64,000 bases of DNA from Halobacteria archaeon HArc-gm2. Its GTDB lineage: Archaea; Halobacteriota; Halobacteria; Halobacteriales; Haloarculaceae. The stretch lies in contig JAOPKE010000003.1 of NCBI GenBank assembly GCA_025517465.1, positions 186,001 through 250,000 of the forward strand, in the 5' to 3' direction. Under the pieces are notes generated by a model. It did no database searches, was not told the origin of the DNA, and was given only the letters and a program-made list of their open reading frames with translations. Positions 15,678 to 20,191 of this stretch are shown in pieces. The position numbers and the translations under genes were made by a program. Within the stretch, counting starts at the first letter, position 1. Every line of letters begins with the position of its first letter.

Positions 15678-17039
15678 ATGTCGGACGCCTCACGGTCGCC
15701 GAACGTCCCCCGCGACGAGTTCGACTTCCGTCACCGGCCGGAGACGGACCAGTCTTTCGAGAACGCGCTGGCGAAGGTCCGCGACGGCGAGCGCCTGACG
15801 GTCGACGACGGCGTCGAATTGCTGACGACGGGCACGGACCACCAGGGGATCGACCCCGTCCGGAAAGAACAGGTACTGGAGGCCGCAGACCGCCGCCGCG
15901 CCGAGGTGGTCGGCGACGAGGTGACCTTCGTCGCGAACCTGAACAACAACGTCACCACCGCGTGCAACACCGGCTGCCTGTTCTGTAACTTCAAGGACCG
16001 CTCGGAGCAGTTCCGCTCGGCGAACGACGAGGATCACGGAGGCTTCACCAAGACGCCAGCGGAGTCCCGCCGGATCGTCGCGGACGCCCTGGAGACGGGC
16101 ATCTACGAAGTGACCTCCGTCTCGGGGCTCCACCCCGCCTTCGCGCTGGACGACGAACACCGCGAAATCCTGGAGGCGAGCGACCGCGAGGACCTGAACT
16201 ACCGCCCGCCCGCCGAGTACGACGTCGACCCGGGCACCTACTGCGAGCAGATGGAGGCCATGTCCGTCGGCGGCGTCCACCTCCACTCGATGACGCCCGA
16301 AGAGGCCTACCACGCCCGCCGCGGCACCGACTGGAGCTACGAGGAGGTGTACGGCCGCCTGAAGGACGCGGGCCTCGATTCGGTACCCGGCACCGCCGCC
16401 GAGATCCTCGTCGACGAGGTTCGCGCGGAAATCTGTCCCGGGAAGATCCGCACCGACGAGTGGCTGGAGGCAATGGAAGCGGCCGCCAGCGTCGGGCTCC
16501 CGATGACCTCCACGATCATGTACGGCCACGTTGAGAACGAGATGCACCGCGTCATGCACCTCGAACGTCTCCGGGAACTTCAGGACCGGACGGGGAACAT
16601 CACCGAGTTCGTCCCCCTGTCGTTCATCCACCCCGATACGCCGCTGTTCGAGCGCGGCATGGTCTCCGGCGGCGCGACGACGGCCGAGGACGAACTGATG
16701 ATCGCCGTCTCGCGACTCTTCCTCGACAATATCGACCACATCCAGTCGTCGTGGGTGAAATACGGCGACGAGCAGGGTCTGAAGATGCTCTCCTGCGGCG
16801 CCGACGACTTCATGGGGACCATCCTCTCCGAGGAGATAACCAAGCGCGCGGGCGGGGGCTACGGCGAGGCCCGCTCCTTCGCGGAGTACGTCGAGATGAT
16901 ATCGGCCATCGGCCGGACGCCCGTCGAACGCTCGACGGACTACGAGCAGCGCCGCCGAATCGACCCCGACGACCCACCCTTCGGGCCGGAACTCGGACCC
17001 CAGGCTGACGGGATGCCGCTGGTCGAGCGAGAGAAATGA
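15678..17039 (+). CDS. cofH: FO synthase subunit 2 (5-amino-6-(D-ribitylamino)uracil--L-tyrosine 4-hydroxyphenyl transferase)
   Basis: A 453-residue radical SAM enzyme. The cluster motif is C96-N-T-G-C100-L-F-C103, the CX3CX2C pattern. The region YGHVENEMHRVMHLERLREL and the EFVPLSFIHPDTPL segment identify CofH rather than CofG or MqnC. With CofG it makes the deazaflavin FO of coenzyme F420 from tyrosine and the ribityl-uracil intermediate. cofG lies about 2 kb downstream on the opposite strand, with a paralogous membrane-protein triplet between them. Confidence 0.95.
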   Translation: MSDASRSPNVPRDEFDFRHRPETDQSFENALAKVRDGERLTVDDGVELLTTGTDHQGIDPVRKEQVLEAADRRRAEVVGDEVTFVANLNNNVTTACNTGCLFCNFKDRSEQFRSANDEDHGGFTKTPAESRRIVADALETGIYEVTSVSGLHPAFALDDEHREILEASDREDLNYRPPAEYDVDPGTYCEQMEAMSVGGVHLHSMTPEEAYHARRGTDWSYEEVYGRLKDAGLDSVPGTAAEILVDEVRAEICPGKIRTDEWLEAMEAAASVGLPMTSTIMYGHVENEMHRVMHLERLRELQDRTGNITEFVPLSFIHPDTPLFERGMVSGGATTAEDELMIAVSRLFLDNIDHIQSSWVKYGDEQGLKMLSCGADDFMGTILSEEITKRAGGGYGEARSFAEYVEMISAIGRTPVERSTDYEQRRRIDPDDPPFGPELGPQADGMPLVEREK

Positions 17040-17054
17040 TTAATTGACAGGAGT
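17040..17054 (+). promoter_or_regulatory. Promoter box repeated upstream of first membrane paralog
   Basis: TTAATTGACAGGAGT starts immediately after the cofH stop and 30 bases before the next ATG. The same 15-mer with one change occurs before the second paralog, which marks it as a shared TATA/BRE promoter element. Confidence 0.6.
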
Positions 17055-17069
17055 CGGAATCGGCGCCCG

Positions 17070-17465
17070 ATGCCCGATCCCCTCCACGCCGCCCTCCAAG
17101 AACGAACGATGCTGGGTTCCGTTCTCGGCTGGGCGACCGTTGCCGGCATATTCTGGCTCATGCTCGACGGTGCGCTGGTCCAGGTCGCACTCGTCGTCGC
17201 ACTCCTCTTCAGTATCGATTCGATCGACGTCCTGCGCGACGTCTACGGGTTCAGTTCCGCTATCAAGCCGCTCGTCGTCGGCATCGTCGGCCTCGCCAGT
17301 ATCGGCGCGATACTGTCCCTGGAATCGGTGGCGATGTTCGACGAGCCAGGAGGAACGTGGCGGTTCCTGTTCTTCGCTGCCCTCACCGCTGCCGCCTGCT
17401 GGATCCTGTACGACGGCGTTCGACGACTCCGCCGCGAAGGCATCTGGTCAGACGACGCCGGATAG
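17070..17465 (+). CDS. Four-helix membrane protein, short paralog without winged helix
   Basis: A 131-residue protein with four hydrophobic helices. Its layout aligns with the N-terminal halves of the next two genes: a first helix near LGWATVAGIFWLML, a YGF/YDL turn before AIKPLVVGIVGLASIG, and a last helix ending WILYDGVRRLRREG. The matching segments in the neighbours are LKSLAVGAVA and WFLFDAVQVVRHDG. Unlike them it stops after the membrane domain, so it lacks the DNA-binding part. Function unknown. It may be a partner or modulator of the full-length paralogs. Confidence 0.72.
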   Translation: MPDPLHAALQERTMLGSVLGWATVAGIFWLMLDGALVQVALVVALLFSIDSIDVLRDVYGFSSAIKPLVVGIVGLASIGAILSLESVAMFDEPGGTWRFLFFAALTAAACWILYDGVRRLRREGIWSDDAG

Positions 17466-17518
17466 CGCCGCGGCTCTATCGTCGTCGGGGAACGCGGCTG
17501 GTGTCGCGAAGGAAACGG

Positions 17519-17533
17519 TTAATTGACACGAGT
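17519..17533 (+). promoter_or_regulatory. Promoter box upstream of second membrane paralog
   Basis: TTAATTGACACGAGT is identical at 14 of 15 bases to the element before the first paralog, and is likewise 30 bases before the ATG. Confidence 0.6.
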
Positions 17534-17548
17534 GAGAGGCAACGATCG

Positions 17549-18229
17549 ATGGCAGACGCCCTCCAGAGCACCCTTCGTGACCGGGTAGACCCCGGGTTAC
17601 TGTTGCATGGGATCGCCTATGCCGGTGCTCTCTACTGGCAACTCCGAACGTCGCCAACACCGTTGAGGGACCTCATCGTCATCGTCGCCGGCGTCACCGT
17701 CGTCGTCGCGATCATCGTTCTGGCGAGTTGGCTGACCGAGACGTACGACCTGCAGTCAGCGCTCAAGTCACTCGCTGTCGGCGCGGTCGCGACGACGTAC
17801 GGCGCCGCCCTGTTCGTCTTCGGCGATATCCCGCCGGCCGTCTCCGTCGGATTGCTCGTCGTCGGCGTGTGGTTCCTCTTCGACGCCGTCCAGGTCGTCC
17901 GACACGACGGCCTGGACGCCGACGAGCGCGGTCCCCCAGACCGACCCGGCGTCCCTCGCGACGACGTCGCCCGGAACGTCGACTACGCGCTGCGCGACAG
18001 GCCCAGAACGAAGCGCGAACTCTGCGACGAACTCGACCTCGACGTGGCGGCCGTCGACGACGCCCTGGCGACGCTCGACGAGCGGCGCGTGCTCACCCGC
18101 CAGGGGAGCGAACTCAGGACCAGTCGGACGCCAGTCGAAGAGCCGGGTTCCGTCGCCAGGATTCGGCGCGAAGTCAGACGGGGCGCCAGCCGCCTGGCGC
18201 GTCCGGTCACCGTGGAGTTGCAGGGCTGA
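17549..18229 (+). CDS. Membrane protein with C-terminal winged-helix domain (paralog 2)
   Basis: A 226-residue protein. Residues of about 15-120 form four membrane helices (LIVIVAGVTVVVAIIVLASW; ALKSLAVGAVATTYGAALFV; VSVGLLVVGVWFLFDAV). Residues of about 140-195 read as a winged helix: NVDYALRDRPRTKRELCDEL, then LDVAAVDDALATLDERRVLT and a wing. The tail (RRGASRLARPVTVELQG) is conserved in the next gene. It may be a membrane-tethered one-component regulator; ligand and targets are unknown. It has its own promoter, so it is a tandem duplicate rather than an operon member. Confidence 0.75.
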   Translation: MADALQSTLRDRVDPGLLLHGIAYAGALYWQLRTSPTPLRDLIVIVAGVTVVVAIIVLASWLTETYDLQSALKSLAVGAVATTYGAALFVFGDIPPAVSVGLLVVGVWFLFDAVQVVRHDGLDADERGPPDRPGVPRDDVARNVDYALRDRPRTKRELCDELDLDVAAVDDALATLDERRVLTRQGSELRTSRTPVEEPGSVARIRREVRRGASRLARPVTVELQG

Positions 18230-18340
18230 ACGGTCGGCTGGGACGGCGTGTTACGCCGGATTCTCGCCCGTCCGAAGCTCCGACCGGTAGCGCTCGGTGC
18301 GGACCTCGCCGATCGAAATCGGGCGGCATCTCGACGGAAA

Positions 18341-18349
18341 TGATTATCT
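18341..18349 (+). promoter_or_regulatory. TATA-like box upstream of third membrane paralog
   Basis: TGATTATCT lies about 25-33 bases before the ATG, at the same spacing as in the other two paralogs. It diverges in sequence from their shared 15-mer, keeping only a loose CTGACGACACG match downstream. Confidence 0.45.
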
Positions 18350-18373
18350 GACGACACGCCAAACCGTCGTCCG

Positions 18374-19060
18374 ATGGCAGAGACCCTCCGCGGTGCGGTT
18401 CGAGAGCGAGCGACCGCGCGAGTGCTGTTCGGGTGGATCGTCGTCGTCGCCGTCCTGTACGCCCTCCTCGGGTCCTCGCCGCTCCAGCTGGCGACGTCGC
18501 TCGCGACCGGTGCCGTCGTCGGCACCGCCGGCCTCCTCACCGAGGTGTACGACCTCCGGGACGAGGTCGAGTCCCTCGCGCTCGGCGTGGTGTCACTGGC
18601 CGGGGGCGCCGCGCTGGTCGCCGTCGAAGGCGGTCACCAGTCCGCCGGCGTGAGCTTTCTCCTGATCGGGGCGTGGACGACCCTCGACGCCGGACAGGTC
18701 CTCCGTCACAGAGGGGTCGCCGACCCCTCGAAAGCGCGGGACGGGCGCGAGGTATATCGCGACTACGTCGCTCGCCGGGTTCACGAGGCCGTCCGGGACC
18801 AACCGCGCACGCCGCGCGAACTGCGGGAAGCCCTCGACGCGGACGGCGAGGACGTCGACCGGGCCGTCGAGGAACTCGAAGCGCGTGGCGTCCTCCGGCG
18901 CGTCGGCGGCGAACTCCGTTCCGCTGACGACGACGAGCAGGCCGACCGCGGACCGCTCGCGCGGACTCGGTCCGTAGTCGCAGCGGGCCTCCGCCGGCTG
19001 GCACGACCGGTCGCGATAGAGTTCGAGTCGGAGTCGTCGGCCACGGGCGACGTTCGCTGA
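18374..19060 (+). CDS. Membrane protein with C-terminal winged-helix domain (paralog 3)
   Basis: A 228-residue tandem paralog of the previous gene. The membrane part has the same turn and helix pattern (LLTEVYDLRDEVESLALGVV; WTTLDAGQVLRHRG). The winged-helix region (VHEAVRDQPRTPRELREAL, VDRAVEELEARGVLRRVGG) and tail (LRRLARPVAIEFE) align closely with paralog 2. It is convergent with cofG, with only 21 bases between stops. Function unknown. Position beside F420 genes could be functional or incidental. Confidence 0.75.
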   Translation: MAETLRGAVRERATARVLFGWIVVVAVLYALLGSSPLQLATSLATGAVVGTAGLLTEVYDLRDEVESLALGVVSLAGGAALVAVEGGHQSAGVSFLLIGAWTTLDAGQVLRHRGVADPSKARDGREVYRDYVARRVHEAVRDQPRTPRELREALDADGEDVDRAVEELEARGVLRRVGGELRSADDDEQADRGPLARTRSVVAAGLRRLARPVAIEFESESSATGDVR

Positions 19061-19081: not shown

Positions 19082-20191
19082 TCAGGCCGGATTCTTGCCC
19101 GTCCGGAGCACCGACCGGAATCGCTCGCCGTGGACGTCGTCGGCGTCGATTGCGTCCGTGATCCGGTCTGAAACCCACACCTCGTCGCTCTCGTCCACGA
19201 ACCGCTCGTACACCGGGAGCCGCTCGCGGAGCGGGACGCCGGCCTCGTCGGCGATCTCCTCCAGTTCCCGGAGCGCGGGCCAGGCGTAGTCGGGATTGAT
19301 GTGGTCGTCGGTGACGGGGGACACGCCACCCAGGTCGTCGATGCCGCAGTCGACCAGGTCGCGGGCGGGCGCGAGGTTCGGCGGGACCTGGACGCTGATT
19401 TCGTCGGGCAGCCCCGCCCGGGCCATCGCCGTCACGCGCCGCATCGTCTCCAGGTCGGGGGTGCCGTCCGTCCAGCGCTCGTTCTCGACGACGGGCTGGA
19501 CGATGACCTCCTGGATGTGGCCGTAGCGTTCGTGCATCTCGCAGATGGCCAGGATACTCTCGGCCCGGTCCGCCCAGTCGTCGCCGATGCCGACCAGAAT
19601 CCCCGTCGTGAAGGGGACCGAGAGTTCGCCGGCGTTCCGGAGCGTGTTGAGTCGCTGGCCGGGGTTCTTGGCTCGGGGGCCGCCGTGAGCCTGCACGTCC
19701 GCCGTCGTCTCCAGCATCACGCCCATAGAGGCGTTGACGTCGGCGACGGTGGCCATCTGCTCGCGCGTCTGGTCGCCGGGGTTGGCGTGGGGGAGGAGGC
19801 CCTCGTCCAGCGCTATCTCGCAGGCCTCCCGGAGGTAGGTGTGGATGGAGTCGTGGCCCCACGATTCGAGCTGGTCGTGGACGGCGGTGTACCGGTCGTC
19901 CGGGTCGTCGCCGAAGGTGAACAGGGCCTCCGTACAGCCCGCGTCGGCACCGCGGGTACAGACGTCGCGAACCTCGTCGGGCGACATGAGTTCGGCCTGA
20001 CCCGGCGGGTCGTAGTACGTGCAGTAGGTGCAGGTGTACCGACACGCCGTCGTGAGTGGGATAAAGACGTTCCGCGCGAAGGAGAGTTCCGGCGCCGAGT
20101 CGACGTCCGCGGGCGTGACCGCCAGGAGGCGTTCGATACGCTCCTCGTCGACGGACAGGTTCACGTCGTACTCGGCGGCGCCGGGTATCAC
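19082..20191 (-). CDS. cofG: FO synthase subunit 1 (7,8-didemethyl-8-hydroxy-5-deazariboflavin synthase)
   Basis: A 369-residue radical SAM protein with C50-R-Y-T-C54-T-Y-C57. The segments FGDDPDDRYTAV, PHANPGDQTREQMATVADVN and GVSPVTDDHINPDYAWP are typical of CofG. It completes FO synthesis with CofH. The start, MIPGAAEYDVNLS, gives the usual archaeal length. It is on the opposite strand from cofH, about 2 kb away. Confidence 0.95.
   Translation of the reverse strand: MIPGAAEYDVNLSVDEERIERLLAVTPADVDSAPELSFARNVFIPLTTACRYTCTYCTYYDPPGQAELMSPDEVRDVCTRGADAGCTEALFTFGDDPDDRYTAVHDQLESWGHDSIHTYLREACEIALDEGLLPHANPGDQTREQMATVADVNASMGVMLETTADVQAHGGPRAKNPGQRLNTLRNAGELSVPFTTGILVGIGDDWADRAESILAICEMHERYGHIQEVIVQPVVENERWTDGTPDLETMRRVTAMARAGLPDEISVQVPPNLAPARDLVDCGIDDLGGVSPVTDDHINPDYAWPALRELEEIADEAGVPLRERLPVYERFVDESDEVWVSDRITDAIDADDVHGERFRSVLRTGKNPA

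Follow-up and report, generated by a model that had tools for sequence, protein, structure and literature searches.

The window analysed here is a stretch of 64,000 nucleotides from the haloarchaeal genome HArc-gm2. It carries three plus strand genes (g1, g2 and g3) in the gap between cofH and cofG, which encode the subunits of FO synthase. Both neighbours were identified with NCBIfam equivalog models, CofH with 546 bits (cutoff 426) and CofG with 466 bits (cutoff 209). The features of the locus are:

15678-17039, plus strand: cofH, FO synthase subunit (NCBIfam), ending 30 bases upstream of g1
17034-17054, plus strand: promoter-like element of g1, AAATGATTAATTGACAGGAGT, which shares its first six bases with the end of cofH and has a TATA-like, T-rich core at -30
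17070-17465, plus strand: g1, 131 aa, predicted four-helix membrane protein lacking both winged helix and tail
17513-17533, plus strand: promoter-like element of g2, AAACGGTTAATTGACACGAGT, in the same register as that of g1
17549-18229, plus strand: g2, 226 aa, predicted four-helix membrane domain, winged helix and RLARPVTVE tail
18338-18352, plus strand: promoter-like element of g3, AAATGATTATCTGAC, related and in the same register
18374-19060, plus strand: g3, 228 aa, predicted four-helix membrane domain, winged helix (about residues 124-184) and RLARPVAIE tail
19082-20191, minus strand: cofG, FO synthase subunit (NCBIfam), convergent with g3

The g2 and g3 proteins align over their length with 41% identity (E 8e-32), two-sequence comparisons match g1 to the membrane half of g3 (E 6e-9) and of g2 (E 0.002), and a family profile scores all three alike as matches. 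Another species of the genus (G006) has g1, g2 and g3 in the same order, with 84, 73 and 86% identity; they are therefore real genes rather than chance ORFs. Judged by their sequences, the three are tandem copies of one small membrane protein. A preliminary description of this DNA had proposed three consecutive paralogues with a common membrane domain, and these comparisons, together with the AlphaFold helices described below, bear it out.

Predicted anatomy of the proteins

An AlphaFold model of g3 was built with nine relatives. Its helices 15-32, 36-59, 62-84 and 89-113 form the membrane part, predicted at pLDDT 53-73, so that their arrangement is of low confidence. The winged helix that had been proposed earlier is predicted with confidence (pLDDT 88-93) and comprises helices 124-142, 147-153 and 158-170 and strands 174-177 and 180-183; the C-terminal tail is modelled as a helix at low confidence. 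The g1 model consists of four helices with nothing after them (mean pLDDT 77). Hydropathy and both models agree on four hydrophobic helices. A winged helix and an RLARPV tail are present in g2 and g3 only, g1 ending after the membrane part as previously described. In all three proteins the membrane domain ends in W-x3-D-x5-R-x2-G; the end motif first given as D-x(3)-V/L-R has to be corrected to D-x4-[LV]-R, which lies within this longer pattern. The loops between helices 1-2 and 3-4 have few residues (about 4-8), and the proteins therefore have no extracellular sensor domain. The N-terminus and the linker following helix 4 are basic, which by the positive-inside rule suggests that both ends of the protein are cytoplasmic.

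Invariant residues in 19 sequences of the core family are W101, Q108, R111, G114, T146, R148, E149 and L150 and, in the tail region, R208, A210, R211, P212 and E216. Conservation is highest in the W/D/Q/R/G motif of helix 4, the T-x-R-E-L of the winged helix and the R-x-A-R-P-x3-E tail.

No Pfam or NCBIfam family matches the membrane part above noise, and a Foldseek search of the PDB with the g1 model gave no match better than E 1.8; since this model is only moderately confident, the missing match cannot be taken as a sign of a new fold. A sequence search for solved relatives gave one weak match, 2ia0 (E 0.011), covering the winged helix only. By structure the g3 winged helix matches 114 PDB chains at Z >= 8, the best being winged helices, among them the non-DNA-binding C-terminal domain of Rpa2/RPA32, the cullin WHB domain and the RNA-binding SelB; the T4 MotA activation domain is among its Foldseek matches. 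RPA32C, cullin WHB and the MotA activation domain are winged helices that do not bind DNA. They have the same fold as the g3 winged helix, but they are soluble and without sequence relationship to g3, and a shared fold does not show a shared function.

Promoters and history of the triplet

The 15-mer TTAATTGACA[G/C]GAGT is common to g1 (17040-17054) and g2 (17519-17533), where it is identical at 14 of 15 positions and spans exactly -30 to -16 relative to both ATGs. g3 carries the related element TTATCTGACG in that register, and in G006 the elements keep it as well. Both the promoter-like element at -30 of each gene and the near identity of the first two had been noted before and are confirmed. 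At up to two mismatches the 15-mer occurs in the window's genome only at the g1 and g2 sites, and in both species AAATGATTAWYTGAC, with one mismatch allowed, has no site in the genome other than those before g1 and g3; a reversed control pattern gave similar counts, so that rarity of the element proves nothing by itself. Upstream of relatives in other genera the element is absent, save for a TTAATT that genus g26 has at the corresponding position. Leaderless promoters with TATA spacing are established in haloarchaea, and the fixed position of the elements points to copied, probably leaderless promoters of g1, g2 and g3. The 15-mer was also considered as the operator of a wider regulon, a proposal rejected for the present on its restriction to the g1 and g2 sites, the similar control counts and its absence from relatives in other genera.

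The tandem triplet was found only in the window's species and in G006. A triplet with a membrane-only partner, previously presented as the layout of a family, is thus known only from two species of one genus and does not hold for the family at large. Between these species dN/dS is 0.31 for g3, 0.48 for g1 and 0.84 for g2, with cofH at 0.085. In a rough Fisher test g3 shows significant and g1 marginal purifying selection (p 0.03 for g1), and the same two-species test did not show it for g2. The tree does not fix the relationships among g1, g2 and g3; grouping the six sequences together, as expected if the triplet arose by one local series of duplications, is not rejected (p-AU 0.23).

Two further observations concern copying within the family. 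Between g2 of the window (17549-18229) and g2 of G006 (L111 7664-8335), dS is 0.06 in the winged-helix half and 0.33 in the membrane half, which suggests recombination or gene conversion. Halosimplex pelagicum has a second tandem copy (L116 8862-9725; 287 aa), an independent duplication that is fast-evolving and has kept the winged helix without the RLARP tail.

The family and the cofH-cofG gap

When 243 genomes of the order were searched with a profile, strong members of the core family turned up in about 15 (~6%), as single-copy, g3-like genes; g3 is the copy most like these relatives in other genera. Presence is patchy even within the window's genus. With relatives added from further searches, 22 genomes contain a core member, and 17 of these have it immediately next to cofH or cofG (the window's genome, G006, G019, G023, G037, G048, G051, G060, G076, G118, G132, G157, G193, Halosimplex pelagicum, H. 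carlsbadense, H. salinum and the MAG QS_9_67_15). This adjacency spans six genera and families f1, f5, f8 and f17. In the other five genomes (G175, G185, G200 and the Halomarina-type G017 and G035) the core gene lies away from cof. A wider set of more distant proteins (profile E about 1e-10 to 1e-22) shares this architecture, and none of 27 loci checked, belonging to these distant relatives and to the core members without cof linkage, has a cof gene nearby. The linkage marks one clade of a wider haloarchaeal group of membrane proteins with a winged helix. One distant subgroup (L120, L124, L125, L132 and L134) is flanked on one side by a conserved gene resembling tRNA 2'-O-methyltransferases and on the other by a TFE-like gene and two conserved genes, as named from the starts of their sequences.

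cofH, cofG and cofC belong to a conserved region of Halobacteria that also contains cetZ1, nolA and purine genes (PMC9856176), and the cetZ1-pur-cof block is likewise visible in the loci examined here. In other genomes the gap between cofH and cofG is occupied by HVO_0513_N/HTH_10 regulators, YdjM-like membrane proteins, two-component genes and enzymes, as well as by a P450 and a CBS-type membrane protein (both named from sequence by eye). Because the block is old and unrelated genes fill the same gap, the linkage may be merely positional: the convergent gap would tolerate insertions, any inserted gene would be inherited beside cof, and the family would have been carried there with a function unrelated to F420. 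We consider this somewhat better than an even bet, in keeping with the patchy presence of the family. It is compatible with either docking or DNA binding by the winged helix, so that its probability does not compete with theirs. Against it, the core gene has stayed beside cofG where cofH moved away (G048, G076 and G132) and beside cofH where cofG is distant (G019), and retention with one member of a separated pair in two separate lineages is more than inertia predicts. The linkage is real, yet it is weak evidence for a function in F420 synthesis.

Among the other occupants of this neighbourhood, at least 13 genomes have an HVO_0513_N/HTH_10 regulator, either inside the gap or adjoining one of the two cof genes (L076 1569-2231, L077 136-798 and L078 207-869, with G001-G003 of the window's genus included; further matches in G008, G019, G026, G049, G077, G085, G113, G158, G186 and G222). 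In Halosimplex it adjoins the membrane winged-helix gene, and in G004 (L079 583-1303) the HTH_10 gene of the gap appears frameshifted into two overlapping ORFs. It is possibly a second, independent regulator type attracted to the cof locus. Halorussus-type genomes have, directly 3' of cofH, a YdjM-like membrane protein (L118 7391-7948; also L084, L085, L086, L087, L088, L089 and L090), which is below threshold in Pfam (27.5 against 29 bits).

Possible functions of the winged helix

Helix 3 was compared between 23 core winged helices (g2, g3 and relatives) and 30 of PF25213 type drawn from three of these genomes, the window's own included, which controls for halophilic acidity; the controls were picked by a DNA-binding-domain model that may favour canonical sequences, and many of them are interrelated. 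All 23 core helices are acidic (net charge -3.5 on average, range -6 to -1), against a mean of +0.17 in the 30 controls (Mann-Whitney p 1.4e-8, which is only a guide since the sequences within each group are related). Directly after the buried V/I/L of helix 3, Asp or Glu is found in 23/23 core sequences and in 0/30 controls, which mostly have Y/S and then R/K/H at this position. The core pattern is D-D-E-A-[VI]-[DE]-x-A-[LV], that of the controls S-x-x-T-V-[YS]-[RKH], and distant relatives are intermediate (T-E-S-R-V-R-E-A-L, mean -2.1). Given an acidic helix 3 in every core member, DNA binding cannot be assumed, and labelling g2 and g3 as gene regulators is not yet justified.

The best sub-threshold family match of the winged helix is PF25213 (HVO_A0261_N), together with PF24270 (HTH_Cmi2_C). 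PF25213 gives 30.0 bits for g3 (E 5e-7), 20.4 for g2, 20-34 in most members and 33.6 in the relative from Halorussus aquaticus; these scores fall short of the curated 35-bit cut-off. Unlike PF25213 proteins, g2 and g3 have their winged helix fused to a membrane domain that has no family model, and they lack the S-x-x-T-V-x-R helix 3.

Transmembrane transcription regulators (TTRs) were defined by Demey et al. by a membrane region and a predicted DNA-binding domain, and are a widespread kind that includes the archaeal ArnR and ArnR1 (PMC10269533). The architecture of g2 and g3 would fit this definition, the four hydrophobic helices supplying the membrane region: as in ArnR/ArnR1, an HTH of predicted DNA-binding type is fused to membrane helices in a single protein. 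However, the HTH of ArnR/ArnR1 is in the N-terminal region, whereas in the g2/g3 family four membrane helices precede a C-terminal winged helix; the short loops without an extracellular domain, the acidic helix 3 and the distribution, so far in Halobacteria only, also set the family apart. g2 and g3 may work like TTRs, yet we do not file them as members because the DNA-binding model scores under its cut-off and core members lack the canonical DNA-reading helix 3. CsmR was considered as a related membrane regulator and set aside, the available part of its description giving no link to the g1-g3 family (PMC13286277).

Our main reading, to which we give a probability of roughly 0.45, is a haloarchaeal membrane protein family whose winged helix serves as a docking or adaptor surface and not as a sequence-specific DNA reader. 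Four helices would hold the cytoplasmic winged helix and the short basic R-L-A-R-P-x3-E tail against the membrane, and W-x3-D-x5-R-x2-G at the end of helix 4 would couple the two parts. The winged helix would dock another cytoplasmic protein, since helix 3 is acidic with Asp or Glu fixed at the canonical DNA-reading position. In the window's lineage the single gene of other genera would have become three tandem copies with copied promoters, and g1, devoid of a winged helix, could bind g2 or g3 through its membrane part, giving no cytoplasmic output. Against docking, winged helices of PF25213, MarR or ArsR style mostly bind DNA, and the best sub-threshold family matches are such domains. Helix 2 is slightly basic (T-R-R-E-L) and so is the tail, which makes an unusual mode of DNA binding possible, and helix 3 of the distant relatives is less acidic.

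A membrane-tethered one-component transcription regulator seems to us about as probable as this membrane-anchored docking module. Its membrane part would sense a signal in or near the bilayer and its winged helix would bind DNA, in the simplest form at the shared -30 element of its own genes so that the triplet regulates itself. The AlphaFold model, in which the winged helix adjoins four membrane helices, agrees with this, as does the confinement of AAATGATTAWYTGAC described above, and ArnR/ArnR1 are studied archaeal cases of membrane-bound regulators (PMC6396743, PMC13286277). On the other hand no extracellular sensor domain is present, -30 is where a TATA element is expected and may reflect a copied promoter, and the element is neither conserved outside the genus nor rarer than its chance control. 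The acidic helix 3 weakens the regulator claim, although DNA could still be bound by helix 2, by the wing or by the basic tail. Of the membrane-tethered one-component regulators put forward in the preliminary description, the family of membrane proteins with a winged helix stands, while DNA binding can no longer be taken for granted.

That description also suggested a possible link to F420 synthesis; a regulator or helper dedicated to F420 (FO) synthesis seems unlikely to us. The survey did not find the family placed at random relative to F420 genes: adjacency extends beyond the genus, the cof-adjacent gene each time follows cofH on the same strand, is convergent with cofG, or both, and the best point for such a tie is that, once the pair had split, the gene was retained by cofG in one lineage and by cofH in another. 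Yet cofH and cofG are each present in 242 of 243 genomes and the core family in about 15, so that the family does not co-occur with F420 synthesis across genomes and the protein is not needed for it; the five genomes with the gene elsewhere, the old conserved block and the unrelated occupants of the gap also argue against a dedicated role. For the suggested link to redox state, no evidence of redox sensing was found. Still less probable is the full combination, a winged helix turned from DNA reader to docking module, tuned by g1 through mixed oligomers and tied to the FO synthase locus.

What is new here is a family of haloarchaeal membrane proteins with a winged helix, encoded in most cases, though not invariably, next to the FO synthase genes and triplicated locally. 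Its acidic helix 3 deserves testing first, and the cof neighbourhood offers a concrete first phenotype. Should the winged helix turn out not to read DNA, the annotation of many haloarchaeal 'membrane HTH regulators' may be wrong, and the family would be a simple system for a change of function in winged helices; if it does bind DNA, three paralogues of which one is membrane-only would make a compact test of archaeal membrane-tethered regulators.
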